In this document: piece by piece, positions 17,219 through 37,200 of the stretch
How positions within the stretch are numbered: position 1 is the stretch's first letter
Layout: each line of letters opens with the position of its first letter
IMG/VR virus record: IMGVR_UViG_3300020391_000003
Span: 1 to 64,000 of that record
DNA length: 64,000 nt
DNA from: a virus
Strand: one strand, 5' to 3'
Notes under the pieces: generated by a model
Seen by the model: the letters and a program-made list of their open reading frames with translations, nothing else
Told to the model about the DNA's origin: nothing
Database searches by the model: none
Made by a program: the position numbers and the translations under genes

Positions 17219-18104
17219 ATCTTCTTTCTAGGCTTTCTAGTCTTTTTTCTAAAAATTCTATTTTCTTTTGTTGTTCTTGAATTGCTCCCACAAGAAGAGC
17301 ATTTACTTTTTCGTATTTAATTGCTTTGTATCCGTCTTTTCTGGTTTCTACTATTTCCGGAGCTACCTCTTCAACCTGTTGAGCAATCAAGCCAATATCG
17401 TGTCCAGTATATGTTGATTGATTATCATTCCAATTAAATTCTATTGCGTCTAAAGACATAACCTTAGACAAAGGTTCATCTATTAAAGTTATATCATCTT
17501 TTAATCTTTTGTCCGAAGCGTAAAAGGCAATTACATCACCTTCAACATAAAGATTACAAACTTGATTAGAATTAGGCGCTGGCCCTATATATAAATCGTA
17601 TTCCGACTGACTACTACCAACTCCTTGAGCTATACGTACCTGACTATCTTGATCCATATCATTTTTTAAATCAATAAAGGCAAATTGCACTGTCCCTGGA
17701 CCAACTTCAATATTCGAAGTAGAAACAAGTCTTTGTTCGGCTAAAACATCTCCTTTGGCTAAAACATCTCCTTTGGCTAAAACATCTCCATATACAACCA
17801 TTCCATTATGACATCCCACATTAAAAGAATTGTCCTCAATATCAGTATATCCACTTAAGCCCATGTAATCTCCAATAACATGCGCATTATATTTTCCGCT
17901 TATTAAATTGTTTGCACCATTTATTATAGAACATCTTTGACTATTTATGATTTCTCCAGCAACACCAGCTCCTATAAAATTATTTTGAGCGTAATAATTA
18001 GTAAACTTAGGGCTATCACTAGGTTGAGCTGGATTAAAATCAGTTGTTCCAGGAGCGTTAACAGGTGTAATATCTGGTGCAGTATCTGATGGATGATTTG
18101 TCAT
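17205..18104 (-). CDS. Tail-fibre protein with C-terminal S74 intramolecular chaperone
   Basis: 299 residues. The N-terminal part has YadA-like repeats (NNFIGAGVAG, NGANNLISGKYNAHVIG). A triple GDVLAK repeat follows (~104-122), then a segment near-identical to the end of the 2381-residue fibre (NIEVGPGTVQFAFIDLKND). The C-terminal ~100 residues are a peptidase S74 chaperone: SDKRLK gives the Ser197/Lys202 dyad that self-cleaves after trimerisation in endosialidase-type fibres. GLIAQQVEEVAPEIV and YEKVNALLVGAIQEQQ follow, ending in a coiled coil. The start overlaps the giant fibre's stop by 4 nt; probably that fibre's separately made tip. Confidence 0.85.
   Translation of the reverse strand: MTNHPSDTAPDITPVNAPGTTDFNPAQPSDSPKFTNYYAQNNFIGAGVAGEIINSQRCSIINGANNLISGKYNAHVIGDYMGLSGYTDIEDNSFNVGCHNGMVVYGDVLAKGDVLAKGDVLAEQRLVSTSNIEVGPGTVQFAFIDLKNDMDQDSQVRIAQGVGSSQSEYDLYIGPAPNSNQVCNLYVEGDVIAFYASDKRLKDDITLIDEPLSKVMSLDAIEFNWNDNQSTYTGHDIGLIAQQVEEVAPEIVETRKDGYKAIKYEKVNALLVGAIQEQQKKIEFLEKRLESLERRSSRS
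17740..17793. repeat. 18-bp tandem triplet repeat
   Basis: Three consecutive copies of ggctaaaacatctccttt encode GDVLAKGDVLAKGDVLAE in the S74 fibre. Short exact tandem repeats of this sort vary in copy number by slippage. Confidence 0.8.
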
Positions 18105-21100
18105 GATAATTCGTATAAAAGTTGCCAGTTGTAAGAAGATGCATTTCGATCGGCATTATAATCTGTTAATCTTAAATAGTAATATCTTCCAACTCCATTT
18201 TCTTCTGATGCATTAGTACAAACCAATATCCAGTTATTACCATAATATAGACTATTAAAAACCACAGCCTTATTGCTAGTTATAGTCACACCATCAGCAT
18301 CAATTTGCCCTCCAGAGGTTTCAATTGTTTGTGTGTGTATGTTGCCAGGACCCGGAAAAAATACCCAACCAAGATGATTTGATGTGCCATGCACTTGAAC
18401 ATTTAACCACATCCATCCATCCCACCTATCATCTTCAGATACAAAAATTTTATCACTTTGTTCTGGAACATATATATATCCAAAATTTAATGTATAAATC
18501 CAAAATCCAGAGTTTAAACCTTGTAATGATGATATAACTTTAAAGTAATACATTGTGTGAGCGCCATTAGGATTATAGGTTGCATGAGATTCTCCAAATT
18601 CAGCTATAGTTCTACTTTGTACGGGAATTTCATTTCCTGCTTCATAATTCCAAGTATTATTTGAGTTATTATAATAATCTAATAAATCTAGATTTTGTGT
18701 TACATATGAATAGTAATCTTCTTCCGGCCCATCAACTAGATAAGAAATCCAAAATAAGTTACTCCAAGAAGATATCGACCCATTTGTTGGAAAATTAGTA
18801 TCATAAGCAATTCCGTTATCTAATAATCGAGTAATTCCTTTTCCTTTACCAAAAGATCCTGTTGCCAGTATTGAATTATCTGGATCATATATAATTTCTT
18901 GAAAATTATTACCATTAATTGTTATATCTTCTGGCCCGAAAAATATTTCATTTTCAAATCCATTCACTATTGATTGATTTGTTCCTCCATCTATAGTGTT
19001 TTTTACTCCAGCTCCAATAAAATTAGCTCCAGCATTGCCCGATTCTAAATTGGGCATTTCATTATTATATCCAGCAACAATAGCAGAAAAATTATCTCCT
19101 AGATTATTATCAAAACCGCCACCTATAAAAGAAAATCTTCCACTTATATTATTATTTCCTCCTCCAACAATAGAAGATGCTATTCCATCTCTATCTACTT
19201 GAGATCCTGTTATGAAGTTATTATATCCACCTCCAATAAATTTTGAATTCGTTCCATCTATTGAATCAAACCCTATAGTTGGATCATCAACTCCATTAAT
19301 AGTTAATGATCCTTTAATTTCTATTCGATTCTCTAGCCCATCAAACCTAATAAAAGAATTTTCTCCTCCAACATCAAATTGAGGATTTGGAGGGTTTCCG
19401 ATATTACCCAAGAAAAATCCAGTGACACCATTTCCAAATTCTTTTCCAACTGTTTTTATTAATCCGCCATGCCCAACAAATTCAGTTCCATCCAATGTGT
19501 CTCCTTGGCCCATTGTAAGGGTGTGAGTTATAACAGCATCTTTTGCTAATAGTAAATCAGTTGCAACACTCTCAAATTCACCGCCAAAAGATTCCCATTT
19601 TCCCGCAGCCTCATCGTTTGTAAAGCTTGCGCTTGATTCATGTGTTTCTTGTGCCATCCAATATTTAGAAGTTCCATCGTCATAAAAAACAACATCTCCT
19701 CTATCAGATGTTTCTGTTGCTCCTGTATATATTTTATCGGGTGCCCATAAACCTCTAAAAACAACCCCAACTCCCTTATTACCTCTTGCTCCTTCGATTC
19801 CTTGTTCAGATATAGAAAACGTTTGTTGTTTTATTATGGTTCCTTCTTGGCCTACGCTATTTTTAAATGTTATTGTATATGTAATTGTTGCAGATTGACC
19901 ACCAAAAGAGTTAAAATTATGAGATTCAACAACACAATGCTTCTCGTTTGCGCCCGTGCTTTTATCAATACCTCCAATAGTAACTCCATTATTGTTGGTT
20001 GAGGCCTGTACCTTAAAATGTTTAATGCTTGAAAGGGTTCCTGCAGTAAATGTTAATTCTTCTGCACCTTGAAAAACTTTAATATCTGTTCCACTTCCTG
20101 CAGAAGTAATTCCTTGAGGATTTTTGGTTAAAGAATGAGCTTCGTTACTTAATATTGCTGTGATAACATCAGAGCCGTCTTGAATACCATAAATACTTAA
20201 TGTATCTTTAGCTACATCAATTTCATCCTCACTCATTTCAACCATAACAGTAGCAACCTTAAACTTATTGTCAGGAGGATTATAGTTTATTGAAGCTTCT
20301 TCGATAAAACCTCCGTTGTAATCGCTGGTGCCCTGCTTAAGCGTACCGTGATCTCCGACAAGGGTGTACCTATATTTCAAAGTCGAATCCGGCCTTTGGT
20401 TGAGTGGGGTTGCAGTTAATGTAATCTCATCAGGATCAGGAGAACTTCCAGCAGTATTATACTTTACAGCTTGATCTCCTGTTAAATCAACTTTTCTTGC
20501 GTGTTCTCCTTCTTGAGATATAGAAAACGTTTGTTGTTTTATTATGGTTCCCGTTTCACCTACGTCATTTTTAAATATTATTGTATATGTAATCGTTACA
20601 GATTGACCAGTGAAAGAGCCAAAATCATGATCATCAATTCTTGCGCAATAATATTTTGTCTGATCGCTATTAGGAAATGCGGCTGCATGAGCTTCTCCAA
20701 ATTCAATTAGGGTAATATTTTGCACAGGATTACCAGCCCATTCATCATTATTATTATAATGATTCAATAAATCTTGATTTCTGGTTACATACGCGTAACC
20801 ATTTATGTCTCCATTTTGTAAAGAACCTTCGGTTACTTGGTTGATGTCTTGTATACCAACAAGAAACTCATTATTATTTAAATCCCCTGCATTGCTTGCC
20901 GATATATTTACAGATAATTCTTTTGTTCCTTGGAAAACTTTAATATCTGTTCCGCTTCCTGTAGAAGTGATTGTTCCTCCAAAATCTTTGGTTAAAGAAT
21001 GAGCTTCGTTACTTAAGATTGCCGTGATAACATCAGATCCGTTCTTCAAAGAATAAATTGTCATTTCGTCTGTTGCTAGAACAACACTTCCATCGGACTT

Positions 21101-24100
21101 TTCACTTATTTCAACTTTAATTTTTACAGGGCCGCCAATTACTTGTGGTACAGTATATTTAACCTCTGTCTCATCCTTGTTAAATCCGCTTATATCTAGA
21201 GGATTATTAACAAAAACAGCTCCACTAGAATCTGTTGCAGTATATTTATAGTAAACATCTCCAATTGTATTATGTGCCGTAGCGGTAAGAGTAATTTCTG
21301 CACCCGAATTAGTATCAAGATCTCCTGCGGAATTATACTCTATTGTTTGATCATTAGCAGTTAAATCTACTTTTCTTGCTACTGTTCCATCAAAAGTTTT
21401 AACTAAATTTTGTTCTGCATCTAATTCTCTTTTTTGTTTATCATTATCAATTACAGTTATTGCATAATTTATTTTGGCTGAATTTTCGCTCGTAGTCCAA
21501 TGTGAGGGCAGAAGTATATTTGTTTTAAATTGCGGCTGATTGTTAACTCCCTCAGAGTTTACCGTTAAAGATGATGAAGTAGCAGCAACATAAAAACCAA
21601 TATCATTATCATCTATGTCTGTCGGAACAGGGCCTGATTTATAATTTAATGGACTTGTTCCATCAAAAACAGTTAATATATTTTCTGTATTAGAAACATC
21701 TACAGTAGTTACTCCACCAGAGCTATCATTTTTTACAGGAACATTAACAAACTGCTGAGATTGAATTACAGTGATAGCATTAGAGCCTTCCTTCAAACCG
21801 AATATTGTAATTTGGTCTGTAGCCCTTGGATTAGTGTCTTCTTCAAATTCACCTGCGACCATTGTTTGGTCGTATGCCTTGCATTCTATCGTAACAGGCA
21901 AACTATAAATTTTCCCATTTATTGTTGTAGTTTGAGATATTTCTGCAGTTCCATCATGAGTACTGGGAATTGGAATATATACGATATTATTTGAAGTTCT
22001 CTCTGTAATTGAATCTTCGCCTATGAAAAATTGATATTCTACGTTTTTACCACCCATTGCTTGAGCAATAAAATTAGTAGTAACTGCGGTTATTTTAACT
22101 TGTTCTATTGACTCAGAATCTTGTGTTGGATTACTACCAGCAGTATCATATTTAACTGCCTGCGTATCAGCAGACAACTCAACAGTTCTTCCCTTGGCAG
22201 CTTCTATTGATTTTGAATAGGTATATATTTTTTCAAAAGCAACTTTGGTACCTGCTTCTTTGTATTGATTGTCTTTTACTTTTATTGTAAAAGTTCCTTG
22301 ATTCTCATTATCAGGATATTCACCAATTTTAACAAAAAGTTTTTTAAAACCGCCTACTTCTTCTATTGAAGTTTCTGCAGTAACATCATCATCTCCTGTA
22401 ACAGAATTTGTTTGGCTAGAAATTATATCACCATCAAGACTAAAACTTTCATTTTCAGATTCGTTTTCATCATATCTATATTCTTTGGTTCCCCTAAAGA
22501 ATCTAACTTGAGTTTTACCTGAGTTAAGATCAGTGCTACTAACAAAACCATTTTCATTTGCTGGATATGTATGATTTTCATTTGTTAGAAAAACAGTATA
22601 AGAATCTTTGCCGGGTAATGTTCCAAAAATACTAACAAAGTCTGAAGCAAGCTCCCTTGAATTATTGTTTTCATCTTTATCAGATATTGTTAGCTTTGCA
22701 ACAAAAGGAGTATTAGAATAATACTGTAAAGCATGATCTGCAAAATCAGCCAATTGAAAGCTAGCGGTGCCATCATTCTTTGTTACTGTGTGTTCTTTTA
22801 CTAATGAAGACGAGTCAAGGTTTACTCCTGTTTCAAAAATAAAATCAATATTACCATGCGTATTATGAGCTGTAGCTTCTAAATTAAGATTTGAGTTTGC
22901 ATCATTAAACTTTCCATCATAATCATAAGAATATACTTGTTGCGTAGCTTTTAATTCTGCATATACAGCAGCCGCTCCATCTGCTACAAAATTAATTGGA
23001 ATTGATCTTTCAGTTGAGGTATTTAATCCTGATGCAGAAACAATGACTGTTGTAAGTTGCGGACTAACAGTATTAATCATTTCATTAAATCCAGTTACTT
23101 TAAATTGCGCAGCAGCAATCTTAGGTTCTCCATCTATAAACGTCCCATCGTCTGGATCATATTTAAATCCACTTATATCGTATTTACCATATGTCGAAGA
23201 AGTAGGATCATCATCAAAATCGCTATACTTAATAAATTCATATTCATTATTAGGATTACTGACCTTGAATCTAACTTCATTTGGTTTAATAAAACTATTT
23301 TGAAAAATTGCTCTTATAGTAGATGCAGATGCATCAGTATCATCATCCATGGTAAAAGTTCCATCAGATAATTCATTATAAAAGAAAGAATCAGGCGTAG
23401 CATCTAAATCTATAAAAGTATATTCCTTACCATCAATTTGTCTTAGTTTTCCTTCTAACACAAGTTCGCTATTGTCAAAAAACAACCTTCCATCATCTGC
23501 AGCAAAAACAAAGCTTCCGTCACCACTAACAACAAAACCTTGACCGGTGTCATCAAGCCCTTCAAACCCTTGGCTTCTTATTTGTCCAGGTGGATTATCA
23601 CCGATTTGAATATCCTGACCCTGTATTACTGCAGATCTAATTTTGTCTGCAGTTAAGTTGTGAATTTTTGCATTTGTAATAGCTGCGTCTTCTATGTGGG
23701 CGCTACCAATTACAGCGTTAGCGAATGAATGCCACATTGGTGACACCACGCCCCCAGCTATCCTTGCAATAATAAAGTCTCCGTCATCTTTTAAAAGCTT
23801 TGGAGTTTGATTTTGCTGATCTGGATTAGCCCCATCTCCTAACCCTGCTGGATGATAATGAGAAACCTCATATTGACCAGCATGCTTAACATTCCTCAGT
23901 CCTAAATCACTTTTCTCTAATTCTCCTTCTCCTCCAGTTTTAATTCCTAATAATTCAAGCCTATCAAGCACGTCTTGAGAAAATAGTACCTGAGGATTAG
24001 ATTCAAGATCTTGCGTTTCTTCTTTTCCTCCAGGCGCTGTTGTTTCTGTCGAACTCCAATATATATATGCGGTTCCGTTATATGGCGCGGCGCCTATATT

Positions 24101-27100
24101 CAATGAACCAGCTTTAACTAAATACCCTTCTCCATCATGATAAACAACATGATCATCCCAATCAACAACATCGTCGGTGCTATTATAACTAAAAGGATTA
24201 TTTGGAACCAAAGATATAGTATTAGGAAAAGATTGACTAATATTTTGTTCAAAGTCAGCTATATCTGTAGTCTTGGCCTGCCCCAAAATTAACTTAAGCC
24301 CCTCTACATTATCAGTATTAGCAAGATCGGATGCACCAGTAAATGGGCCTTTATTTCCGGCGTGATCAACAGGTCTTACCCAAAAGTAACTAGTATCATT
24401 TACTTGTCCTCTATGAGTTATTTGTATAGACGGAGAAGATGCATCTATATCCAATACATTTGTAGCATTTATAATATCATTTGCAAAATCTTCATATTCA
24501 GTTGGAATATTATCTCCAAAAGTATATTGTATTCCATCAATTCTTCTGTATCCTGTAGCATTTTGTTCTTCTGTTAAAAACTTTGGAGGAGATGATGAAG
24601 ATCCATTGTCAAATTTTAAAAAATTATTAGATTGCCCTGTTGATTGCCACACCTCGTAATAACTAATATCATTTGGAGCAGCATCAACCAAAAGATTATC
24701 TTGAATTTGAGCATTAGGCATGTTCCAATTTAAGAAATAATTTTCAAATGCAGTAGATCCAGTAAGATTAACCACTGGACCAGGAATTTCGTCTGTAGTA
24801 ATTTTTATAGCGGGGCCAGTAGGAGCATCTGGATTTTTTGAATGAAAGTTTTTGGGTAAAACCCAAACTTTTTGTATTGGATCTCTATCGTCAACCGCAG
24901 TATATAACGCCCCACTACCAAAATCATCGAAAGGTAATAATTTATAATAGTATCCAGTTATTTCTTCACCTACTTCTGCGGTATCATCTACTATTTGAGT
25001 AATATTATCTCCAAAAGTTGCATCTCCTTCTCCTACCACCGACTTAACAAAAGTAGAAGGGTAATACATCTGATGCGATAGTGGGATCAATCCTTGTTCT
25101 GCTGCGTCTCTGTGATTTTCACCAAATTCAACTAGAGTTCTACTTTGTATGGGTTCACCAACTCCATTTCTGTCATAATCCCAAAAATTATTTGGGTTAT
25201 TATAGAAATCGAGCAAATCCTGATTTTTCGTTACATATGAGTAGTAATCTTCTGAGCCCGGCTCATTAAAGATTTCTTCAGGTACTGAAATTTCAGTAAA
25301 CGGTAAACCATCAGAACCTGTTATCTCAAAATCAGGTTGATCAGATCTATATAAATTCAATAAAGTAGTTTTTTCTTGCCTGCCTAAAAGATAATTAAAA
25401 TTAAATTTTACTTTTGTTACTTCGCTTTCAGAATCTACCGAAAAACCATTATTAGATATTACTGGAGCTGGATTATCACCGATTATTCGCTCCCTAGATA
25501 CTACTTGTCCGTCCGAACTTACAATTCCAACTTCTAATCCCACGCTTCTTTTTCCGCTTTCAGGTATTCCTACATGACCAAAAACCACATCCTCTAAGCT
25601 GTCATTAATTTCCCAAAATGGTGTCCAATCTAAGGTGGTATAATCCTGATTTAACGTCGTTAAGGGTATTGGAGGCTCTGAAGTTGTAGTGCTAATGTTT
25701 GCTTTATATACTGTTTCATTAAAAAATACATAATCCGCATTTGGATTGTTACTGTAAGAATCAATACATACTTTAAATTTATCAGACACATCTGGAGTTT
25801 GTAGCTGCCAACTTTGAGTTTCATCTCTAGTAGGAGGTAAAGTTGAAGCGCTTGATGATGCTATATATTTATAAATAGAACAATCAATATCAGAAAAAGG
25901 CCTAATTATTTTCCAGAATGACGAATCTAAATCTGGCCTTATAGCATTACCAACAGACTGAGAGGTTAAAGACTCATATATTGCCCCTTCATACAAAACA
26001 ACATCTGTATTTAAATAAGATTTAGTGTTATCAAATATTTCAATATTTCTCGTTGGTGCAACAACTAAATCATTTAAATTGTATACAGTATTTTCATTAA
26101 ATACTCCTATTTCTTGGCTTATTCCCGGACCAGAATCTGATAATGATTCATACAAAACACCGTTATATTTAACTACGTCAGAAAAAGGCAAGTTTTCTCT
26201 ATAATAGTACGTTTTCGCCGGATCCCAGTACTCATAGAAAGGTCTAATGTAAGGCTGTTTATCTGCATTCTGTTTTATTGAATTATAAACAAATTCTTTC
26301 TCAACAGGCAGGGTGCTAAAAAACGTTGCAGCTTCATCTGTAAAATATTGAGAATAATGAAATATATCTGTCTTGTCAATTACTTTATCATTATCATCAG
26401 GAGTATATATTTCAGATGAGTCAAAATTTTCTATACCTTCTGGAAATCCTCCATCTTTATATATTGAATTATTCAATTCCCTTGAATAAGTAAATTCAGA
26501 ATTAAGTTTTTCTTCCCCGATTCCAGAAAGATATCTATTTGTATGATTATCAAAAAGGTGGCCACTTAAACCAAGAACCTTTGGTTCATCTCCAAAATTT
26601 ATTTGATACTTTTCATTTGCCAACTCAACTGGAAGCCCGTCTTGATCAACAAAGTTCCATTCAAAAATTAAATCGTCCTCTCTTTCTCTAAAATTTAAAT
26701 TTTCTATTTTAATCTCAGAAGTAATCGGACTTAATTCCGCAAAATTAGAGGCTTCAACTAATCCATCCTCAGTAAAGTTAAAGAGCTGCCCTGTGCCATA
26801 TCCGTCTGACGGCCTAAATGTATAATAATAACTATAACCAAATATTTGTCTATTCACAAACGACTCTTCGGTTACCCGCAAAGATTCAGAAACATAATCA
26901 ACCTTCGGCCCAACATTTAACCAATATACAGAATTAGGCGGCGATGTTAAATTTGAATTTAAATGAGTTTGTCGAGCAATGTAAACATCTCCCTCGAAAA
27001 CAACCATGCTTTGATCTTGATAAAATTGTTCATCCTTAAGTGAAACATATTCACTAGCATCTTTAATGTTTCTAAAAAAATCTATATTATTTTGAAGATC

Positions 27101-28027
27101 ATAAATATCAATCAAAGATTCTTTAACTGGAATTCCTATATAATTAACCTCAACAAATTCAAAATCAGAGTCTTCGGAAGAAAAGAAAAAAGATGAATCA
27201 GAAGAGTTTGTTCTTTGCGAAAGGCTAAGGTCTGGAAAAAAATTTATTCCACTTAAAGTTCCTGTACAAGATCCGCCCTTTGAATCAAATGCCGATATTT
27301 CAAAAAATACGTTACGATCTAAATTTAATTCTTGCTCAGAAAAAGCTGTTTCATTTATTTGTAAATTAAAATTTGTATAACTACTTAATTTACCTGCCAC
27401 ATTAGCCGTAGATAAACTATCTTGTAAAGATACTGAATTGTTTAATGTTGCATCATCTATTAAGATATTATCTTTTGTATTTTTAATTTTAATTTCAAAA
27501 TGATCAAAAAAAGCATCTGAATTCAATTCTTCATTCACTGCTTGTCCACCCAAACTATGACCTTCAGGCGGAATTAAATCCCAAGACAAAGATATATTTT
27601 TATTTACATATTCTGATTCAACTTCTAATGTGTCTCCTACATTATCAGGACTACCAATTATTACATTATTTAAATTAACAGTATCAGGCAAATCATCTAT
27701 TTTTAAATTTGCAAAAGTAAAAGTTCCATCGAATGCTGGTGGGCTTATATATATTTGTTCTTGAACAAACTCAGACCTCGTTCCTATATCACTTACCGCA
27801 AATACTCTAACATCAAAATTTCCATAATTTCCTTTTAAAGGTACAATCGTTTGAATTCTTTCTCCAGTAAACTCATTTTGCCCAAATTCTTCATACTCTC
27901 CAGTTATCAAATCTTCTCCCCTCCCGAGTTGATATTGAAAAGAATAATTATCTGAAGTTCCAATCACCTCATAATTTGCACCTATATCGTGCAAATCAAA
28001 ACTTAAACCTATAGCTGTAGATGGCAT
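18101..28027 (-). CDS. Giant 3308-residue tail fibre / central tail-tip protein
   Basis: The N-terminal ~900 residues are FN3-like and CBM5/12-like modules (FDNTKSYLNTDVVLYEGAIY; VVFEGDVYIARQT). A J-type C-terminal fibre linker lies at ~1440-1540 (SAHIEDAAITNAKIHNL; DGSFVFAADDGRLFFDNSEL). Four or more ~220-residue repeats (RKVDLTGDQAVKYNTAGSSP; GSDVITAILSNEAHSLTK) follow to ~2700. YadA-like GGGxNNxxxG repeats are at ~2925-3025. The end is a YVTxNxDLL module plus a tryptophan-rich cassette (~3097-3290). Two more YVTxNxDLL modules sit at ~922-990 and ~2405-2465. Role: trimeric receptor-binding fibre at the tail tip, continuing the J function of the upstream gene. It begins 5 nt after the I-J stop. 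Confidence 0.75.
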   Translation of the reverse strand: MPSTAIGLSFDLHDIGANYEVIGTSDNYSFQYQLGRGEDLITGEYEEFGQNEFTGERIQTIVPLKGNYGNFDVRVFAVSDIGTRSEFVQEQIYISPPAFDGTFTFANLKIDDLPDTVNLNNVIIGSPDNVGDTLEVESEYVNKNISLSWDLIPPEGHSLGGQAVNEELNSDAFFDHFEIKIKNTKDNILIDDATLNNSVSLQDSLSTANVAGKLSSYTNFNLQINETAFSEQELNLDRNVFFEISAFDSKGGSCTGTLSGINFFPDLSLSQRTNSSDSSFFFSSEDSDFEFVEVNYIGIPVKESLIDIYDLQNNIDFFRNIKDASEYVSLKDEQFYQDQSMVVFEGDVYIARQTHLNSNLTSPPNSVYWLNVGPKVDYVSESLRVTEESFVNRQIFGYSYYYTFRPSDGYGTGQLFNFTEDGLVEASNFAELSPITSEIKIENLNFREREDDLIFEWNFVDQDGLPVELANEKYQINFGDEPKVLGLSGHLFDNHTNRYLSGIGEEKLNSEFTYSRELNNSIYKDGGFPEGIENFDSSEIYTPDDNDKVIDKTDIFHYSQYFTDEAATFFSTLPVEKEFVYNSIKQNADKQPYIRPFYEYWDPAKTYYYRENLPFSDVVKYNGVLYESLSDSGPGISQEIGVFNENTVYNLNDLVVAPTRNIEIFDNTKSYLNTDVVLYEGAIYESLTSQSVGNAIRPDLDSSFWKIIRPFSDIDCSIYKYIASSSASTLPPTRDETQSWQLQTPDVSDKFKVCIDSYSNNPNADYVFFNETVYKANISTTTSEPPIPLTTLNQDYTTLDWTPFWEINDSLEDVVFGHVGIPESGKRSVGLEVGIVSSDGQVVSRERIIGDNPAPVISNNGFSVDSESEVTKVKFNFNYLLGRQEKTTLLNLYRSDQPDFEITGSDGLPFTEISVPEEIFNEPGSEDYYSYVTKNQDLLDFYNNPNNFWDYDRNGVGEPIQSRTLVEFGENHRDAAEQGLIPLSHQMYYPSTFVKSVVGEGDATFGDNITQIVDDTAEVGEEITGYYYKLLPFDDFGSGALYTAVDDRDPIQKVWVLPKNFHSKNPDAPTGPAIKITTDEIPGPVVNLTGSTAFENYFLNWNMPNAQIQDNLLVDAAPNDISYYEVWQSTGQSNNFLKFDNGSSSSPPKFLTEEQNATGYRRIDGIQYTFGDNIPTEYEDFANDIINATNVLDIDASSPSIQITHRGQVNDTSYFWVRPVDHAGNKGPFTGASDLANTDNVEGLKLILGQAKTTDIADFEQNISQSFPNTISLVPNNPFSYNSTDDVVDWDDHVVYHDGEGYLVKAGSLNIGAAPYNGTAYIYWSSTETTAPGGKEETQDLESNPQVLFSQDVLDRLELLGIKTGGEGELEKSDLGLRNVKHAGQYEVSHYHPAGLGDGANPDQQNQTPKLLKDDGDFIIARIAGGVVSPMWHSFANAVIGSAHIEDAAITNAKIHNLTADKIRSAVIQGQDIQIGDNPPGQIRSQGFEGLDDTGQGFVVSGDGSFVFAADDGRLFFDNSELVLEGKLRQIDGKEYTFIDLDATPDSFFYNELSDGTFTMDDDTDASASTIRAIFQNSFIKPNEVRFKVSNPNNEYEFIKYSDFDDDPTSSTYGKYDISGFKYDPDDGTFIDGEPKIAAAQFKVTGFNEMINTVSPQLTTVIVSASGLNTSTERSIPINFVADGAAAVYAELKATQQVYSYDYDGKFNDANSNLNLEATAHNTHGNIDFIFETGVNLDSSSLVKEHTVTKNDGTASFQLADFADHALQYYSNTPFVAKLTISDKDENNNSRELASDFVSIFGTLPGKDSYTVFLTNENHTYPANENGFVSSTDLNSGKTQVRFFRGTKEYRYDENESENESFSLDGDIISSQTNSVTGDDDVTAETSIEEVGGFKKLFVKIGEYPDNENQGTFTIKVKDNQYKEAGTKVAFEKIYTYSKSIEAAKGRTVELSADTQAVKYDTAGSNPTQDSESIEQVKITAVTTNFIAQAMGGKNVEYQFFIGEDSITERTSNNIVYIPIPSTHDGTAEISQTTTINGKIYSLPVTIECKAYDQTMVAGEFEEDTNPRATDQITIFGLKEGSNAITVIQSQQFVNVPVKNDSSGGVTTVDVSNTENILTVFDGTSPLNYKSGPVPTDIDDNDIGFYVAATSSSLTVNSEGVNNQPQFKTNILLPSHWTTSENSAKINYAITVIDNDKQKRELDAEQNLVKTFDGTVARKVDLTANDQTIEYNSAGDLDTNSGAEITLTATAHNTIGDVYYKYTATDSSGAVFVNNPLDISGFNKDETEVKYTVPQVIGGPVKIKVEISEKSDGSVVLATDEMTIYSLKNGSDVITAILSNEAHSLTKDFGGTITSTGSGTDIKVFQGTKELSVNISASNAGDLNNNEFLVGIQDINQVTEGSLQNGDINGYAYVTRNQDLLNHYNNNDEWAGNPVQNITLIEFGEAHAAAFPNSDQTKYYCARIDDHDFGSFTGQSVTITYTIIFKNDVGETGTIIKQQTFSISQEGEHARKVDLTGDQAVKYNTAGSSPDPDEITLTATPLNQRPDSTLKYRYTLVGDHGTLKQGTSDYNGGFIEEASINYNPPDNKFKVATVMVEMSEDEIDVAKDTLSIYGIQDGSDVITAILSNEAHSLTKNPQGITSAGSGTDIKVFQGAEELTFTAGTLSSIKHFKVQASTNNNGVTIGGIDKSTGANEKHCVVESHNFNSFGGQSATITYTITFKNSVGQEGTIIKQQTFSISEQGIEGARGNKGVGVVFRGLWAPDKIYTGATETSDRGDVVFYDDGTSKYWMAQETHESSASFTNDEAAGKWESFGGEFESVATDLLLAKDAVITHTLTMGQGDTLDGTEFVGHGGLIKTVGKEFGNGVTGFFLGNIGNPPNPQFDVGGENSFIRFDGLENRIEIKGSLTINGVDDPTIGFDSIDGTNSKFIGGGYNNFITGSQVDRDGIASSIVGGGNNNISGRFSFIGGGFDNNLGDNFSAIVAGYNNEMPNLESGNAGANFIGAGVKNTIDGGTNQSIVNGFENEIFFGPEDITINGNNFQEIIYDPDNSILATGSFGKGKGITRLLDNGIAYDTNFPTNGSISSWSNLFWISYLVDGPEEDYYSYVTQNLDLLDYYNNSNNTWNYEAGNEIPVQSRTIAEFGESHATYNPNGAHTMYYFKVISSLQGLNSGFWIYTLNFGYIYVPEQSDKIFVSEDDRWDGWMWLNVQVHGTSNHLGWVFFPGPGNIHTQTIETSGGQIDADGVTITSNKAVVFNSLYYGNNWILVCTNASEENGVGRYYYLRLTDYNADRNASSYNWQLLYELS
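18538..18735. repeat. YVTxNxDLL/EFGExH module, copy 3
   Basis: Encodes (minus strand) EEDYYSYVTQNLDLLDYYNN...PVQSRTIAEFGESH...MYYF within the giant fibre. The stretch tctccaaattcagctatagt followed by tctactttgtacgg is nearly identical at DNA level to the copies at 25057-25262 and 36945-37140. Confidence 0.8.
20632..20812. repeat. YVTxNxDLL/EFGExH module, copy 2
   Basis: Encodes NGYAYVTRNQDLLNHYNN...PVQNITLIEFGEAHAAAF...KYYCA in the giant fibre. More diverged than the other copies, but the same order of motifs, inserted inside one of the ~220-residue fibre repeats whose sister copies lack it. Confidence 0.75.
25057..25262. repeat. YVTxNxDLL/EFGExH module, copy 1
   Basis: Encodes SEDYYSYVTKNQDLLDFYNN...PIQSRTLVEFGENH...HQMYYPS in the N-terminal third of the giant fibre, between two FN3-like segments. 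Close relative of the copies at 18538 and 36945. Confidence 0.8.
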
Positions 28028-28032
28028 AATTA

Positions 28033-31000
28033 TTATAAACTTAAATCTGTTAAAATTAAATTTTCAGGAGCCTCAGGAATACCCATGTCTGCTTGGGGAG
28101 GTATAGGCAATACAGGTTTTCTTACCACCCCCTTTGATTCAGCTGCAGAAAACTTAGCTATATTATACTCTAAACCTGTAATACGAAAAGCTCCCACATT
28201 ATCTTCATTAATAGACATCACCCTAAATTTTTGACCTTCAAATATTCTTTGGTTAATTGAGTTAAAGTTTTCAAAAAATTCAATACTTCCAAATCTAACC
28301 ACAGATAAATTTTCTAGCAAACCTTTTTCTTCATCTGATCCCTGCAACTCAATAACATCTTGACTTACATATAAAGCTCTAAATTCTTTTTCATTAAAAT
28401 TGCCATCAAAACTCGAGCTGCTAGTATCAAAATCTTTTATGGTTACCATATAACTATTTCTTAAATCATTATCATGAGATGATATTAATTGCAATCTAAC
28501 TGCATCTCGCCCAGATAAAGAGCTTCCAGCATCCACCAATTCAATATCAATAATATTTACATTTCTATAAAATAAATTTTCACTAAGATTGCTTTCCTGA
28601 AAAGTTTGATTGATTGATCTGAATTGTTGTTCTACAGAAGAAGAAATCTTCGTGGGTATAAAACTTGCCCTAGGAGAGTTTTTTAAAACATAAAAAGCAA
28701 AACTTTGAGATGAATTTGAAGTGGTCTCAGAGTTCACTATCTCAAAAAAAGTGTCTTTCAGCTGTAACATTTGCCCATTATCTTTAACCGCCTCACCAAA
28801 TATTTTGTTTGGATCTTGAGAATGCTGATCTATTGCTATTAAATACATTATTTCTGGATCTATATTAGAATTTCCATCTGGATTGCCAAACACTACTTCA
28901 ACCCATAATTTTAAATCTTTTATATACCATAGTCTTGGATGTGATGCGTCAAACCAAACCCACCCCAATCCGTATTTTTCAGGAGTAAAATAAATCCAAC
29001 AACTAGAAGATGCTCTATCAATCAGCTGATTAAGATAAACCCACTTGAAGCTTCCTGCTATATTTATCATTCCCCAACCAGTATCCATAAGGAATAATGT
29101 CCCAAAAAAATCAGAATAAAACCATTCTTGTGTTTGTATTCCAGGAATGCTTCTTAAAAGTAATTTTTGTTGCATTACTTGAGCCCTAGAAGCTTCAATG
29201 CTTCGTATTTCATTTTTACCTGCATCAAACAGGCCGTGCAAGATATATATTGATCCTGCCTGTATTTGATTAATTGCTTTTATCGTTTTTTCGTAATCCT
29301 CAGGGCAGACATAATGCTGTCCTCCTTTGTTTAAAAATATATCTCTACCAATGTCAGATATATCTATATTTATTCTATTGGAGTTTGTCATTGCATATAC
29401 TTTAAAAGCATTTTTTTCAACATCATATACATAAAGAGCATTATTATCAGCATATGACTCCGACAATCCTCCTGGCAAAACTCCTTCTGTCTCAAATTTT
29501 ACCCTATCTCCTTCCTTGAATCCATGATTACGTATTAAAATTTTATTAGACGCAGTATCAAATTTCACGGGCATTCTTAATGTTAAATTTTCAAGATATG
29601 TTGATTGTCCCTGGGGCCCTTTTCTTGATTCTTCATCTACATGTACAGATAAATTTCCAGAAAATATTAAAGATTGAGGCACCTGTAAAGAATTTATTTC
29701 TTCGTCTTGATTCTCTATACTAGTCTCAAAAGAGCTTTTACTTTGTATGGAATCTATACTAGACGAACCGGCCCCCGTTGCTATTACAATTTCAATTTTC
29801 TTGTAAGACGGTGAAAAATTATCATTTTTATCAAGTAAAATTTTATTTGCGTCTACAGCCAGCACCCTACCGCTTTTATCAGATCCAGCTCTCATTTCAT
29901 CAGAAATTTCTATTATTGATCCAGGAGTTAAATAAGCTCCTTCTTTTGAAGTTTCAAAAGAAACTGTTTCTGTTTCTAATTGTGAAGTAAATAATATCCA
30001 TTTTGCAAATCTTCTTGCCTCCGATTCACTCGTTACCCCCATGGCAGCTATCTCTTCTTGAATATAACCAAAACTTTTAATTGCGTCTGCATCTTCTTCA
30101 TAAATTACGTCTGGTTTAAAAGATTTCTCTCTATTATTAAATCTAATTAAAACGCTACTAATTCTTTTATTTTTCTGAACCCCACTATAAGAAAATCCTT
30201 CAGGAGATACATTTGAATTATTAAATATCATTGATGTCTTTTTTGGCCTGTCCTGAATAGAAGTTATTCTTCCATCAATATACGAGGATATTGCTCTAAA
30301 AGAAGATGCAATTAAATTTATCATTTGCAATGCATCACTTCTTTCGGTAAAATAAAAATTGCCAGAAAATCTAGGTTCAACAATCGCATGATTTTTTTGA
30401 ACTGCGCATGCTCCCAAAATTATTTTTTTTGCTCCTGTTGAAAATGCAGGAGGTGGAGTTCTAGTTGGATTATTTCTACCAAATGTACCTCCAGGAACAT
30501 CAAGCCAATGACCTTCTCCCCATTGAGATATAGTTCTACTACTTGTTTGTTGTAAATACGCAGTAGCAAGATCATTATTATCAGGATGATCTACATATGC
30601 AGCAAAATCCAAATTAAAATCAAATACCGCAGAATTATCAGAAAAATCTGGGCCTCTTAATTTTATAGTTCTAGAAGAATTTATTGTTTCTTCAATCACT
30701 CTTTCTTCAATAACAATTTCACCATTTCTTTGTTTAGAATTTTCATAAATATCATGCATATTTTCATCACCCAAAGAATGCTGGGATATAAAAAAAGCCA
30801 TCTTTTTACCTTTAAAAGATACTCCTTCTCCAAAATTTTTCTTAAACTGCTCGTCAGACAAGTAATTATCTGTTATAGATATTTCGAAAAATTCACTTGC
30901 ATCAGGATTTATTATACTAGAGAAAATAATCGGAAACCCAGATTCATTAGAGTTTTCAGCCTCTATCTCATAATCTGTTTCTACTAATTCATCACAATAT

Positions 31001-32820
31001 TTAGCAATAGCATACAATCTCCATTTATCTATATTTGTTTCATTAAGTCCATACTTTCCCAGACCATATCTAGCATCATGAATTAAATCAAAAAATATCC
31101 AAGCAGGATTATCTGACCATTCTCTTAAATTGTCGGGAATAGATTGTAAGGAAGAACCTTCTTCTTCTCCTTTAAACTTACCATTCCATGGTCCATCATA
31201 CTTCCTGGAAATTGGGTCATAATTACTTGGCAATAAAATCTTTTTAAGCTTCAAATGATAAGACCTTTTCGGTATTTGACTAAAATTTTTGCTATCAAAC
31301 TTTAAAAAAACACAGGCACTATTAGGATACACAAGATTTTCTTCTATAATTTCATTGACATATGTCATAGCCAATTCTCTTACAACATAAATACCCCCTA
31401 TATTTTTATCACTTACTGTAGGATCAGTCTCTGCACTTAATTTCAATATTTTAAAAGATGGATTTACATCCTGAAATTTTATTTGAATATCAAATTGATA
31501 TGCAGAAGTAGCAATTCCTCTAACAACAAAACATTTTTCTCCAGACCTTGTTTTAGCAATAAACAAACCAGAACCATTACCTTCTCCTGGATCCTCTTGA
31601 ATTATAGTTCCAAAAGAAGAAAGAACATAATTACTATTTTGTTGATTTGCTAAATCAATTAAATTTACTTCCTCATTATCTTCTACAACCAAAATTGTAA
31701 AAAATATTGCATGAGGATTAACATTTCCAGTTGTATCATTTCTTGCAACTCTAGTTCTTAATGAAAATTCTACTTGCCCAACATTTACATTGGAAGGCGC
31801 AAAAGTAAATATTTTTGCGCCCGCCTCTTGAGCAGCTGCAGTACTTTCATATACTCCTCCACTTACTGCGCGACTACCAACATAAGGTGGACCACCAAAT
31901 AAAACCTGATCTTCATCTTTTGTTATTCCTATTCCCCTAGCAGTTTCACTTAGTAAATTATTTTTATTATCTCCCAATTTTATTTTAGGCACAAAATTTT
32001 CTTCGGTAACTCCTGCTCGGTCACTTTCACTCAAAATATAATTTAATGAGCCCTTTGATCCATCATCTTTTTTTGGGTTTCGTATTGGGATTCCATTTAA
32101 AAAAACCGACTCTTCTATGTCTTGTTCTGAAATTAACACTCCATTTTTATTTACTGGTCCAGCAATCGCTCCTTCTGATACTAGGTCTAGTAATTCAATA
32201 GACATAAAGCTTTCCAAGAGGTTTTTATTTGTTGATTTGCTATTTCTTTTTAAATTAAAAGTTTTTTTTCTAGCAGATATATTGGTTGAACCGACCATAA
32301 GCCTTCCATACCCCAAAGGCACCGCCACTCCTTGCGAAGTTCTATTAACAGCCCCCGACATAAGAAAAGATTTTGTTGAAACTGGATCTTTTCTTTGTGG
32401 AGGCTTTGGAGGTTTAGATAATACAGTTATAGCTATTTGAGTGGCAGTTGCAATTGCCATTATTTTCGTAAGTACTGTGGCGTCAGCCCACCACTTTGCT
32501 ACAGCCGCAATAGCAGCAGCAACAGGTCCGCCTCCGGCTGCCATCGGAACAATATGAAATTCTTGATTATTACTTTTTAAATTATAATTAGTTTTATTGG
32601 CACAACTATTTCTAAATTCGGCTGCATTTTTAATACAGGTTATATCTTTATTTAGAACAATATAAGAAACACCCTCTTGTTCTTTATCAAATAAATAATT
32701 AGTAAATCCCTCAAAATTATTAGAAAGCGCAGCAATAAGATCTTGGGCACTGTCAATCTCAAACTCGAATCGTTTTCCGAATTTTTTGCCTAATTCTCCA
32801 TGTAAATACGCCTTTTTCAC
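28033..32820 (-). CDS. Fused tail-tip assembly protein I and host-specificity protein J
   Basis: 1595 residues, GTG start with AAGG 6 nt upstream. Residues 1-~140 match lambda gpI/TapI: LHGELGKKFGKRFEFEIDS, then a Gly/Ala hydrophobic segment (~95-137) ending SKPPKPPQ. From ~165 the gpJ core begins: SFLMSGAVNRTSQGVAVPLG and the hallmark LLDLVSEGAIAGPVN (~206-220) with VFLNGIPI. A diverged YV...SQWGEGHW module lies at ~737-780, and a Trp-rich segment (WVYLNQL, CWIYFTP, LGWVWF) at ~1230-1313. gpJ forms the trimeric tail-tip hub that contacts the receptor; gpI normally acts as a separate assembly factor, so the fusion is notable. Upstream neighbour is K, downstream the giant fibre. Confidence 0.85.
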   Translation of the reverse strand: MKKAYLHGELGKKFGKRFEFEIDSAQDLIAALSNNFEGFTNYLFDKEQEGVSYIVLNKDITCIKNAAEFRNSCANKTNYNLKSNNQEFHIVPMAAGGGPVAAAIAAVAKWWADATVLTKIMAIATATQIAITVLSKPPKPPQRKDPVSTKSFLMSGAVNRTSQGVAVPLGYGRLMVGSTNISARKKTFNLKRNSKSTNKNLLESFMSIELLDLVSEGAIAGPVNKNGVLISEQDIEESVFLNGIPIRNPKKDDGSKGSLNYILSESDRAGVTEENFVPKIKLGDNKNNLLSETARGIGITKDEDQVLFGGPPYVGSRAVSGGVYESTAAAQEAGAKIFTFAPSNVNVGQVEFSLRTRVARNDTTGNVNPHAIFFTILVVEDNEEVNLIDLANQQNSNYVLSSFGTIIQEDPGEGNGSGLFIAKTRSGEKCFVVRGIATSAYQFDIQIKFQDVNPSFKILKLSAETDPTVSDKNIGGIYVVRELAMTYVNEIIEENLVYPNSACVFLKFDSKNFSQIPKRSYHLKLKKILLPSNYDPISRKYDGPWNGKFKGEEEGSSLQSIPDNLREWSDNPAWIFFDLIHDARYGLGKYGLNETNIDKWRLYAIAKYCDELVETDYEIEAENSNESGFPIIFSSIINPDASEFFEISITDNYLSDEQFKKNFGEGVSFKGKKMAFFISQHSLGDENMHDIYENSKQRNGEIVIEERVIEETINSSRTIKLRGPDFSDNSAVFDFNLDFAAYVDHPDNNDLATAYLQQTSSRTISQWGEGHWLDVPGGTFGRNNPTRTPPPAFSTGAKKIILGACAVQKNHAIVEPRFSGNFYFTERSDALQMINLIASSFRAISSYIDGRITSIQDRPKKTSMIFNNSNVSPEGFSYSGVQKNKRISSVLIRFNNREKSFKPDVIYEEDADAIKSFGYIQEEIAAMGVTSESEARRFAKWILFTSQLETETVSFETSKEGAYLTPGSIIEISDEMRAGSDKSGRVLAVDANKILLDKNDNFSPSYKKIEIVIATGAGSSSIDSIQSKSSFETSIENQDEEINSLQVPQSLIFSGNLSVHVDEESRKGPQGQSTYLENLTLRMPVKFDTASNKILIRNHGFKEGDRVKFETEGVLPGGLSESYADNNALYVYDVEKNAFKVYAMTNSNRINIDISDIGRDIFLNKGGQHYVCPEDYEKTIKAINQIQAGSIYILHGLFDAGKNEIRSIEASRAQVMQQKLLLRSIPGIQTQEWFYSDFFGTLFLMDTGWGMINIAGSFKWVYLNQLIDRASSSCWIYFTPEKYGLGWVWFDASHPRLWYIKDLKLWVEVVFGNPDGNSNIDPEIMYLIAIDQHSQDPNKIFGEAVKDNGQMLQLKDTFFEIVNSETTSNSSQSFAFYVLKNSPRASFIPTKISSSVEQQFRSINQTFQESNLSENLFYRNVNIIDIELVDAGSSLSGRDAVRLQLISSHDNDLRNSYMVTIKDFDTSSSSFDGNFNEKEFRALYVSQDVIELQGSDEEKGLLENLSVVRFGSIEFFENFNSINQRIFEGQKFRVMSINEDNVGAFRITGLEYNIAKFSAAESKGVVRKPVLPIPPQADMGIPEAPENLILTDLSL

Positions 32821-32828
32821 CTTGTGCC

Positions 32829-33167
32829 TTATTGGTATACACTTTTATAATACACTCCAAATTCATCATCTCTAAGACTATATATTAAAAAAGGTATATC
32901 TATTTCATCACAAAACTTTTTATCACAAAAAGAAGGCTTCGCAGAATATTCCAAGTGAGAGTGAAAAATGTATATAACATCATGTTCAATTAAATTATTA
33001 GGTTCAATTATAAAAGAATTTTTTTTATCTAAACTAACGTTTTCACATTCTATAAAATCTATAGTTAAGCCTCTTTTTACAACCAACCCGCAGCATTCTT
33101 GAGATTTATTTTTTATTGCATATTTTTTAATTTTATCAAGTATAAACTTCTCTGGTAATTTATTCAA
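32829..33167 (-). CDS. Tail protein K-like JAB/MPN metalloprotease-fold protein
   Basis: About 112 residues. ECCGLVV supplies the JAMM glutamate; FHSHLEYSAKPSFCDKKFCD gives the H-x-H-x(7)-S-x-x-D metal site. This is the N-terminal domain of lambda gpK; the NlpC/P60 domain of lambda K is absent. It probably acts in tail-tip assembly or cell-wall contact. I place the start at TTG 33167, because GGAGG lies 8 nt upstream and the start overlaps the L-like stop by 8 nt. The frame is open to 33200 (another TTG). Its last codons contain GTGTATTATAA and GTGTATACC, resembling the late promoter element, but here they are coding. Confidence 0.75.
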   Translation of the reverse strand: MNKLPEKFILDKIKKYAIKNKSQECCGLVVKRGLTIDFIECENVSLDKKNSFIIEPNNLIEHDVIYIFHSHLEYSAKPSFCDKKFCDEIDIPFLIYSLRDDEFGVYYKSVYQ

Positions 33168-34296
33168 TTGGGTATGCCTCCGTACCAGGAAATCCCCCAA
33201 AATTTAAAGCATCTACTCCTTTTTCTGCTCTATTAAAAGGCAGTAACCTTTCGTCTTTTCTTCCAAATCTTTTTTTGCAAGCATCTAAGGTCTTATTGCA
33301 TTCATCTTTTGCCCAGTGTTCTTGATCAAAAAATGGATTGTGTAATCTAGAACTTTGATGATCTTTCAAGCAAACAAATACTTGAGCTGATCTTTTATGT
33401 GGATCTAAACTATCATGCTTAGATATAATTTTTACAATATCATTTTTTTGATAACCAAACTTTTCATTCGCATTTACATCGGACGTCCATTCAGGAATGT
33501 TTTCTTCTGTTAACGTATCAGAGGAATCCCATCTTATTATATCTTCATCATCAACGATTCCGGTTTCTCCATTTATTTTATAAGACCTTAATATAAACGA
33601 AACAGGATCTCCTGTTTCAGTCAAGCATAAATTTTTTCCAGAGTTATTTTCTATAGGCGCGCCACTGTATCTGCATCCAATATCACACCTATATGTCCAA
33701 TTACAATAATTAGACAACACCACCCTAGCAGGAATAAAAGAGTCTTCCAACTCTAAAGCTGATACCAATTCGAAAGAAATTTCAGTTTTATTTTCCGTTA
33801 TTTTTTTACTAATAAAATACACTTCATCTCGAAAATGCGCATTAGGATCAGATTTTCCAAAAGGATTAACTCCTTTATTATTTAAATTTCTATTTTGAAA
33901 ATTAACATCATCTAAAAATCTTACAAATGTTCTTCTTCTTGTCACCTTACAATTAGCAAAATCTTTATTTGAATGAACAATTTTAGAGAACAAGCCTTCT
34001 GGATTTGATATTCTTAATTTTGGTCTAGGTAATTTTCCATCAGAAGTAGATTCAAAATCGTCTGCCTGTATAGGTAGAGGCTGATATTCTTTACCCTGCC
34101 AAACCACTGCATTTGTTCCATTTATCATAGCGCAAAACCTATAAACAGCCTCTGCCCCAATGTTTATTTGATACATATCTTTTAAAGCCTCAAAGTCAGC
34201 CTGTATATTACTAAAATCAATTTCAAATAAAGTTACAACTGTATCTGGAGTAATTGAAGCTAATTGCTTGCTAAAATTTGATTCTGATCTTCCCAT
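33160..34296 (-). CDS. Minor tail protein L-like, Fe-S cluster type
   Basis: 378 residues. The N-terminal part follows gpL: VTLFEIDFSN, WQGKEYQPLPIQADDFE, LPRPKLRISN. The C-terminal half has conserved cysteines in gpL spacing: YCNWTYRCDIGCRYSG, then DECNKTLDACKKRFG and FGGFPG. In lambda these hold a [4Fe-4S] cluster. Insertions between the two cysteine blocks make it longer than lambda L (232 residues). Minor protein of the tail-tip complex, between M- and K-like genes as in lambda. Overlaps the upstream stop by 1 nt. Confidence 0.85.
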   Translation of the reverse strand: MGRSESNFSKQLASITPDTVVTLFEIDFSNIQADFEALKDMYQINIGAEAVYRFCAMINGTNAVVWQGKEYQPLPIQADDFESTSDGKLPRPKLRISNPEGLFSKIVHSNKDFANCKVTRRRTFVRFLDDVNFQNRNLNNKGVNPFGKSDPNAHFRDEVYFISKKITENKTEISFELVSALELEDSFIPARVVLSNYCNWTYRCDIGCRYSGAPIENNSGKNLCLTETGDPVSFILRSYKINGETGIVDDEDIIRWDSSDTLTEENIPEWTSDVNANEKFGYQKNDIVKIISKHDSLDPHKRSAQVFVCLKDHQSSRLHNPFFDQEHWAKDECNKTLDACKKRFGRKDERLLPFNRAEKGVDALNFGGFPGTEAYPIE

Positions 34297-37200
34297 TACA
34301 TGTAAATTTTAATTTTTGCCGACTGAGGATTATAAAGCCCGTCACTTTGAATTTCTATACTTGAATTGTAAAAACCCTTTGCTACTCCGAATACTATCGG
34401 ACCAGTTTTGGCGGGCAATTCGTGGTCATTTGCTTTTCCAGGAAGTGTTTCTTGCCAGACTTGCTTACCATATTGAGATTTAGTTAAGTAATATTCATTA
34501 AATGGAGGAGAATCAGAGACAAGTTCTATTTTTCCATAATTAATGTCTCCTCTATTTGTTACTGAATTATTAGACCAGTATTTGGAATGATACTTATTTA
34601 TATACGCTTCATATTGTTGATCTTCTGTGATTAGATTATAAATAATTCTATTTCCCGAAGAATCAACAAAATAATAAAGTTTTTCACTTATTGTTGCATC
34701 GTCGTATATAATATCGAAAAAGGCTTCTTGACTTCCTTGTAATATATTAATTGAGTTATTTTCAAAAAATTGAGTTGCTATAAAGTATCTGCAACTCTCT
34801 GGCATTGAGGGTATACTGGGTGATGTTGGGTGTTTTATTATTGTTCCATCGTTTTTTTGAGTAAACACAACTTCTTTACCATTTTCTTTCACAGGTTCCC
34901 ACTCAGACTTATCTGTGCCTCCTTGCATTAACTTAAAAGACTGACCTCCTTCAACTCCTTGTGTGAAATTTTTGCTTAATTCTATTTTGGCTCCCTGAAG
35001 ATTAAACGGCAGACTTGTTGATAGAGTTTGTTGTATATCAGATGGTATAGTAAATCTTAAATCCAAAACTCCTGATTTTTTTACAACTGGAATTGACTGC
35101 TGATTTCCTCCCCCAACACTACCCAAAAAATAAAATGAATCTTTGTTTGGATCATTAAATTTCATTAGACTTATTTGCACAGGATCATCTCCGATATTTT
35201 TAATATTTACTCTAAATCTCCATGGAGACAATCTATTAATATTATCTTCTTTATTTGCTAGAATTATTTGAGAATTAAAATTTAATTCTCCAGCAGAAAG
35301 TGTTGGTGGAGAAACCGAGGAATCAATTTCCTGCGCAGAAAAGTTAAAAGGGAACTGCTCAAAAGAGGCGGAAATACTATGATTATTTTTAAAATTGTAT
35401 TTGTGAGACCATTTTTGACATATAAAATTTTGAACTCTATCGTAAGGAGATGGAGGCTTAAATAAAAACGGAACAGAACCAATATGTTGCTCTAGAAAAT
35501 GCAAAATAGCATAAGCTTCATCGTCGTCTCTGTTATTGAAATTTAAATCTAATTTAAGCAAACTTTCATTTATTCCATCTTTATAAACCTGATTATACCC
35601 TTCTACAGATTCAATATTTAACATCCTGGGTTCTTGATTTACAGATAAACCAAGCGAAGGCTTCCAAAAAAAATCTCTAGACCAATATTCTTTATTGATA
35701 TCAGTGAAATAACCGCTTTCTCTAGTCCATTCTGAATTTTCTTGCACAGGAGGCTTCCCCGCAGCAGAATCTCCAGACCAATAATAATACTTATGATTAC
35801 CAGTTGAAAATGCTATGTCATTCAACTCATATTGAAAAGAGTCATCATAATCTGCAGGTCTTTTTACAAACAAATCTTCAGACTTTTTTAGAATTGATGT
35901 ATCAAAATTTGAAAGCTTTATATTTAAATCATTATTATTTTCAAATGCAAGAGAGTGAGAAAAGTTTTGACAATAAAAGTTTTTAGTTTGCACCTCAACA
36001 GAATCATAAGGATGAAAAGCAGAAGACCCATCCCATCTAAATCCAGATATTCCTTGAGAATATTTTAAGTTAGATGACGACGAGTCTTTTTGATGTTGTC
36101 CTTGATGATTTTCTAAAAAGTGAATTATAGCATTTGCCTCTTTATTTGTCCTATTTTTAAATTCAAGATTTGCTTCAAATTTTACTGAATTTATTCCTCT
36201 TGGTCTTATTTCATAGTATCCATTTCCAAACTCACTTTTAATATTTAGAGTCGTAAAATCTACCGAAGAACCGTAATCTGCATCAAAAAAGAACTTGTCT
36301 TTAGTCCACTTGTCCGGATTTTGAGACGGAGAAAATGTTAATGCTGATAAAGTTATGTTATGGTTACTTTTTTTTTCAAAAGTTGATATTCTAGAAGAGC
36401 TATCAGCTTTTTTAATTTGTATTCTAGAACTTATTCCATCAACTTCTCTACTAACGGGATTAGCGGGTGCAGTTGGCACTGTTATATTTGATTGATCTGT
36501 AAGGCCATCAACTCCCCTTGATCCATCTTCTATTCCGTACCATCTTTCGTTTCCATAATTATACATAGCCAAAACATATTTCGGATCATTTATCTTTGTA
36601 ATATATAACCAGTTTCCCGCAGGACCAAACCTTTGATCAAATGCATCATTATCTAAAAATAAATATCCATTTTCAGTATGCGATTTTTCAGCATACATCC
36701 AAACTCCACTATTTATAGATGGTTGATTTATGTCTCCAATAAAAAACCATACCGCATTAGCATTGACAGGGCTAATGAATATCCAACCTAATTGAGGAGA
36801 AAAAAGCCATCCGTTGTTTACGTTTGGAAAATTCCAAAATGTGAAATTAATCTCAGATGAAGTACCTGTATGAGATTTTAAAAACCAAGAGCTTTCATAC
36901 CAATCAGCTATAGTTTTTGTTGCATCTAAAGCCTGTATAATTTCAGAAAAGTAGTACATTGTTCTACCTTCGTTTTCTCCAAACAACCTCCAATGACTTT
37001 CTCCAAATTCAGCTCTTGTTCTACTTTGTACGGGATGAGGAGTTCCATCTTGATCATAATCCCAAGCATTACTTGAGTTATTATAATATTTCAATAGATT
37101 TGCGTCCCTAACTACATACTGGTCGTAATCCTCTTGGCCGAATATTGGAATGTCTTGAAAATTTTCTTCTATACTTAATATTTCGTAAGAACCGTTAGCT

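Follow-up and report, generated by a model that had tools for sequence, protein, structure and literature searches.

A Short Module in Three Unrelated Tail Proteins

The window, the whole stretch of DNA analysed here, is a 64-kb part of the 184-kb record of a large, uncultured phage and includes a tail block on the minus strand. This block encodes a tape measure protein (39601–46209), an M-like minor tail protein, L, a Prok-JAB-like protein, an I-J fusion, and a fibre protein. Three of these products contain a short module, and all five of its copies lie in long open frames: three in the fibre and one each in the M-like protein and the I-J fusion.

18101–28027, minus strand: host 1, fibre protein, 3308 aa
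28033–32820, minus strand: host 2, I-J fusion, lambda J-like (PF13550, phrog_31, phrog_32)
34296–37529, minus strand: host 3, M-like minor tail protein (PF05939, in two stretches)
18542–18724, minus strand: module copy f1, fibre residues 3102–3162, near the C-terminal W-rich stretch of the fibre
20645–20806, minus strand: module copy f2, fibre residues 2408–2461, within sister repeat R2
25058–25255, minus strand: module copy f3, fibre residues 925–990, with a degenerate second half (EGR end)
30451–30615, minus strand: module copy IJ, diverged, I-J fusion residues 736–790
36948–37136, minus strand: module copy M, M-like protein residues 132–194, the most complete copy (HWRLFGENEGR)

The original prediction had placed three copies in the fibre, one in the M-like protein, and a diverged one in the I-J fusion, and had regarded these hosts as nonhomologous. 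All five were recovered at or near the places it gave, and the fibre, I-J, and M-like proteins are indeed nonhomologous. A family profile built with the five copies included matches exactly these five places in the 184-kb record (E 1.2e-14 to 7.1e-9), and the search of the whole record returned no sixth copy. In a jackknife in which each profile retained the other window copies, every left-out copy was still among the top five matches of the window (i-E 4.8e-6 for f1, 1.9e-5 for M, 8.8e-5 for f3, 4.4e-4 for f2, and 0.0035 for IJ), and the best unrelated stretch of the window gave an i-E of 1.5 or worse. A profile of only the three modules of another virus contig, L010, ranked M (1e-4) and IJ (0.008) first in the window, and one single L010 module used as query found M at E 3.5e-5. 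IJ is the weakest of the five copies, but its position has independent support. The original observation is confirmed.

W-rich stretches lie near or in the same three hosts, at residues 210–310 of the M-like protein (36600–36902), 1233–1313 of the I-J fusion (28882–29124), and 3202–3280 of the fibre. They might represent a second promiscuous domain, their mutual similarity being too weak to call.

The EGR Family in Phages and Bacteria

Judged by its sequence, the module is a member of a widespread, uncatalogued repeat family, which we named EGR after its commonest ending. The family pattern is Y-x3-N/S-x-DL...H[WYF]x3Gx2EGR, and its bacterial repeat form is Y-x3-[SN]-x-D[LV]-x2-A-[FY]...H[YF]-x3-G-x2-E-G-R. 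Members share Y, D(L), H, G, and R in that order; in alignment A4 the Y is invariant and D16, H51, G56, and R61 are each conserved at 90% or more. Copy M keeps every conserved position except the D, for which it has N, and the G-x2-EGR end is gone from f1, f2, and f3. Each window copy is recognised by a family profile from which it was itself withheld (i-E 4.8e-6 to 0.0035). No Pfam, NCBIfam, or PHROGs model covers the module.

Profile comparison with hhalign linked the window copies to the other phage modules (probability 84.7, score 28.8, with 200 column shuffles reaching at most 18.6) and the phage modules to the bacterial repeats (probability 95.6, score 36.6, with 200 column shuffles reaching at most 14.5). 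A window-only profile compared directly with a bacterial-only profile gave no significant match (probability 2.9, with 4 of 200 shuffles scoring as high), so the link between window and bacteria is a chain that runs through L010 and the Caulobacter-phage modules. Besides this indirect profile similarity, the bacterial repeats and the window copies have in common the conserved Y, DL, H, G, and EGR and the same order of three helices. However, the bacterial repeats are about 40 residues long and often tandem, whereas the window copies are single and span about 54–66 residues, in four of them (all but IJ, which is without the long loop) the segment from helix 2 to helix 3 is extended, and in most of the copies the EGR end has decayed.

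Bacterial EGR loci occur in Alpha-, Beta-, and Gammaproteobacteria, in Cyanobacteria including Prochlorococcus, and in Chlorobiaceae. At a threshold of 1e-5, and with the anchor genome counted in each case, matches were present in 11 of the 146 genomes sampled from the cyanobacterial phylum and 12 of the 399 sampled from the proteobacterial phylum. The original prediction was right that the module is real, but it missed this bacterial spread. The bacterial hosts are RTX proteins, M10 and S8 proteases, a GH5 cellulase, bacterial Ig proteins, beta-helix proteins, and adhesin-like proteins; glycosyltransferases (GT2, GT1, GT61, or WsaF) account for 7 of 10 EGR proteins in one batch, which was hand-chosen from low-copy matches rather than sampled at random. 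The common theme of these hosts is that they meet or build surface polysaccharide.

Several further observations concern the family at large. Two proteins encoded on viral contig L010 (L010:2–526 and 637–2148) contain several EGR modules, and a structural gene of the head/packaging class (phrog_20475) lies just downstream of them. Modules on bacterial glycosyltransferases, again with no Pfam model, were seen in L088, L091, L092, L093, L094, L100, and L101. Fold matches in BFVD on giant-virus glycosyltransferases, at E 0.3 or worse, provide a lead only. Record MT836085 (L023), labelled “Bacteriophage sp.,” encodes a protein of 1236 aa in which the EGR repeat occurs about ten times; the protein looks like a secreted bacterial one and the record is possibly mislabelled, and we counted it as a bacterial example.

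Other searches returned nothing: the A1 profile and the I-J protein had no match in viral contigs, the M module had none in phages by tblastn, the L010 module had none in genome contigs, and motif strings had none in the text of papers. Bacterial-type and giant-virus-style bait queries found nothing in viral contigs, and consensus baits served only to retrieve real records. Matches to the patterns WG..HW, FG..HW, and WG..HY were dropped, as none holds a module in an open frame, and a weak match in Stenotrophomonas phage C121 was discarded because it spans small hypothetical genes.

Insertion of the Module into Its Hosts

Three independent comparisons, of fibre repeats, a J loop, and a Caulobacter/Brevundimonas phage tail protein, indicate that the module was inserted into its host proteins. 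The first two concern the following features.

22190–22990, minus strand: fibre sister repeat R0, residues 1680–1946, no module
21377–22189, minus strand: fibre sister repeat R1, residues 1947–2217, no module
20498–21376, minus strand: fibre sister repeat R2, residues 2218–2510, the sole module carrier of the four
19823–20497, minus strand: fibre sister repeat R3, residues 2511–2735, no module, 47% aa identity to R2 over aligned columns
30379–30981, minus strand: insertion in J that holds the IJ module, residues 614–814, about 200 residues

The four fibre sister repeats are 225–293 residues long. As had been predicted, one copy interrupts a repeat whose sisters are without it, and since the module is missing from three of the four, gain is favoured over loss. 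An apparent FN3-like sister domain of copy f3 required a forced alignment and was set aside as evidence. In the I-J fusion, the loop before EPRF measures 7 residues in four J homologues vs. about 200 here, and copy IJ is thus part of a larger insertion.

The third comparison involves a tail protein of giant Caulobacter and Brevundimonas siphoviruses that carries Phage-tail_3 (PF13550) and Rcc01698_C domains. Seven homologues (C1, CcrBL9, CcrColossus, CcrPW, Bambus, Gurke, and Kikimora) contain one module, and the aligned site in phiCbK, CcrRogue, and Bajun has none, a pattern compatible with either gain or loss and proof of neither. This presence and absence supports the earlier idea of an in-frame module variably placed in unrelated tail proteins; neither of the outcomes named as speaking against it, copies that are integral strands of one host domain or homologues that always carry them at fixed places, came about. 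The C1 gp158-type protein resembles the window case in having a single EGR module in a PF13550 tail protein. It differs in that there is one copy, at one fixed site of one protein, with no long loop and on a separate branch of the module tree.

Predicted Fold and Putative Role

An AlphaFold model of the M module, made from an alignment of 46 rows, has a pLDDT of 90.4 and a pTM of 0.77, with helices at residues 7–12, 15–22, and 44–56 and bridge residues at 5 and 65. Read from the secondary-structure string alone, residues 5 and 65 appear to pair in a terminal beta-bridge, so that the two ends of the module appear to lie together. A model of a four-repeat bacterial array (pLDDT 97.2) has three helices per repeat, as does the M module; three helices per EGR unit are thus common to both, in predicted models. 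Sequence and fold searches of the PDB gave no significant match, and hence no solved homologue, for the module or for the bacterial array model. The confident model suggests a small autonomous three-helix unit of plug-in shape, which, with its ends lying side by side, could slot into a surface loop without breaking the fold of its host.

We consider it reasonably probable that these observations reflect an autonomous module carried in-frame, copied long ago within one phage lineage, and serving weak multivalent adhesion to host glycans, where both the adhesion and the route of copying are what we infer. The copies themselves, their insertion and variable placement, and the family membership of the phage-type modules are established by the comparisons above, and the fold is a prediction. 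Under such a scheme, the small three-helix EGR domain entered exposed loops of tail-tip and fibre proteins in-frame, in three unrelated proteins within a single phage lineage. Its copies would have passed between tail proteins long ago, through duplication or recombination inside the genome, and would have diverged since. Each would now act as an accessory adhesion domain, together offering several weak host-glycan sites along the tail tip and fibre; candidate targets are LPS, capsule, or an S-layer sugar. The putative glycan role is suggested by the bacterial members, whose host proteins include glycosyltransferases, a GH5 cellulase, and adhesin-like proteins, and from this association with glycan-active proteins the module is probably an accessory domain that binds host glycans. 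The carbohydrate binding raised in the original prediction thereby gains indirect support, and the glycosyltransferase hosts offer a clue to the ligand. That linkage could instead reflect a structural or localisation role.

A structural role is the core of a competing explanation, in which the module binds no ligand and is an element for spacing or oligomerisation, bracing loops or packing in between the subunits of the tail. The compact helical fold with neighbouring ends seen in the model would suit such an element, as would the regular tandem arrays of bacteria, which are predicted to have the same three helices in each repeat and often lie near the C terminus; moreover, our analyses identified no binding residue or ligand for the module. 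However, the copies stand singly at unrelated sites of unrelated proteins that have homologues without the module, which suggests that it is dispensable for assembly, and family members reside on enzymes that act on polymers and glycans. We regard a purely structural module as unlikely.

Origin of the Copies

The original prediction held that the copies are alike at the DNA level and were spread by recombination. The string TCTACTTTGTACGGG has 3 matches vs. 0.07 expected, and blastn aligned f1 with f3 (79% over 139 nt, 4e-30) and M with f1 (79% over 107 nt, 1e-23). The 150-nt flanks gave no convincing match, and DNA similarity ends at the module edges. Identical codons for shared residues exceed the codon-usage expectation for f1–M (z 3.0), f1–f3 (z 2.4), and f1–IJ (z 2.4), whereas f2 has no synonymous-codon excess over codon usage relative to f3 or M. 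The four best copies share 43–59% aa identity. Thus, part of the set is genuinely alike at the DNA level, but this likeness is old. Confinement of the similarity to the module agrees with spread by recombination, but the copies are old, and a signature of recombination or of a target site was looked for without success.

In a tree of 57 modules, which has few columns and little resolution, M, f1, f2, and f3 fall together, weakly, near L010, and the Caulobacter-phage modules fall elsewhere; IJ is too long-branched to be placed. The topology fits copying within the lineage for four copies, as well as separate entry into phage tails on two or more occasions, and proves neither. Separate arrival of the copies from different sources, an alternative that bears on origin only and not on function, would explain why f2 is without synonymous excess relative to f3 or M, why IJ is so diverged and has no long loop, and why the Caulobacter-phage modules sit on another branch. 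Yet f1, f2, f3, and M group together and have common QSRT-like and EFGE motifs, and f1–M and f1–f3 keep DNA similarity exceeding codon usage, which makes separate arrival distinctly improbable. With copying within the phage lineage as the preferred origin, a genome in which three unrelated proteins hold five copies would make the copying of protein modules within a phage traceable.

Candidate Calcium Loops

37044–37061, minus strand: DYDQDG in copy M, candidate Ca2+ loop
25163–25180, minus strand: DYDRNG in copy f3, candidate Ca2+ loop

These loops could bind calcium in M and f3 only. Calcium binding had also been suggested for the module as a whole; although DYDQDG and DYDRNG are the sole DxDx[DN]G motifs in 9251 aa of tail proteins and many bacterial members are on RTX calcium-binding proteins, a calcium-dependent stabiliser or binder acting through this loop is a very improbable general explanation, for the motif sits in the long loop that bacterial repeats are without and is missing from f1, f2, IJ, and all other aligned members. 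Since the loop occurs in only two copies, and not in all members as would be expected of an EF-hand- or dockerin-like family, calcium is not a family trait.

Relation to Known Tail Domains

Promiscuous accessory domains of phage tails are known, and the well-described ones, Ig-like and BACON, are beta-sandwiches. PMC6949934, which cites Fraser et al. 2006, describes tandem BACON repeats in phage tail proteins and implicates Ig-like tail-fibre domains in host or carbohydrate binding. Like the Ig-like and BACON domains (the latter from crAss-like phages), which phages have in common with bacteria and which serve as accessories in tail proteins and other proteins of the virion, the window module is present in several nonhomologous virion proteins. 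In contrast to them it is about 60 residues long, predicted to be all-helical, and without an Ig or BACON Pfam match. The module thus appears to work as these domains do while being a different, helical, uncatalogued domain. Mosaicism of tail-fibre protein fragments with shuffled domains is also established (PMC10684548), and a fragment common to otherwise unrelated tail proteins is a shared feature; what differs here is that several copies occur in one genome and in three structural gene classes.

The window module would accordingly represent a helical promiscuous tail domain whose family is widespread and missing from curated libraries, and with a curated EGR model many proteins at present labelled hypothetical would gain annotation. 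A more far-reaching reading, in which EGR is an unrecognised glycan-binding superfamily with a new fold that is found on bacterial surface proteins and glycosyltransferases, in phages, and possibly in giant viruses and that in phages hops in-frame as a plug-in between unrelated structural genes, is possible but on balance doubtful.

Elsewhere in the window, two phage glycosyltransferases (phrog_2170; 2309–3364 and 13327–15231) are both without the module. A Peptidase_S74 domain (endosialidase-type chaperone) is C-terminal in a 299-aa protein beside the fibre (17205–18104) and in a 2381-aa protein (56624–63769). The tape measure gene contains five direct-repeat copies with a 54-nt period (40412–40735).
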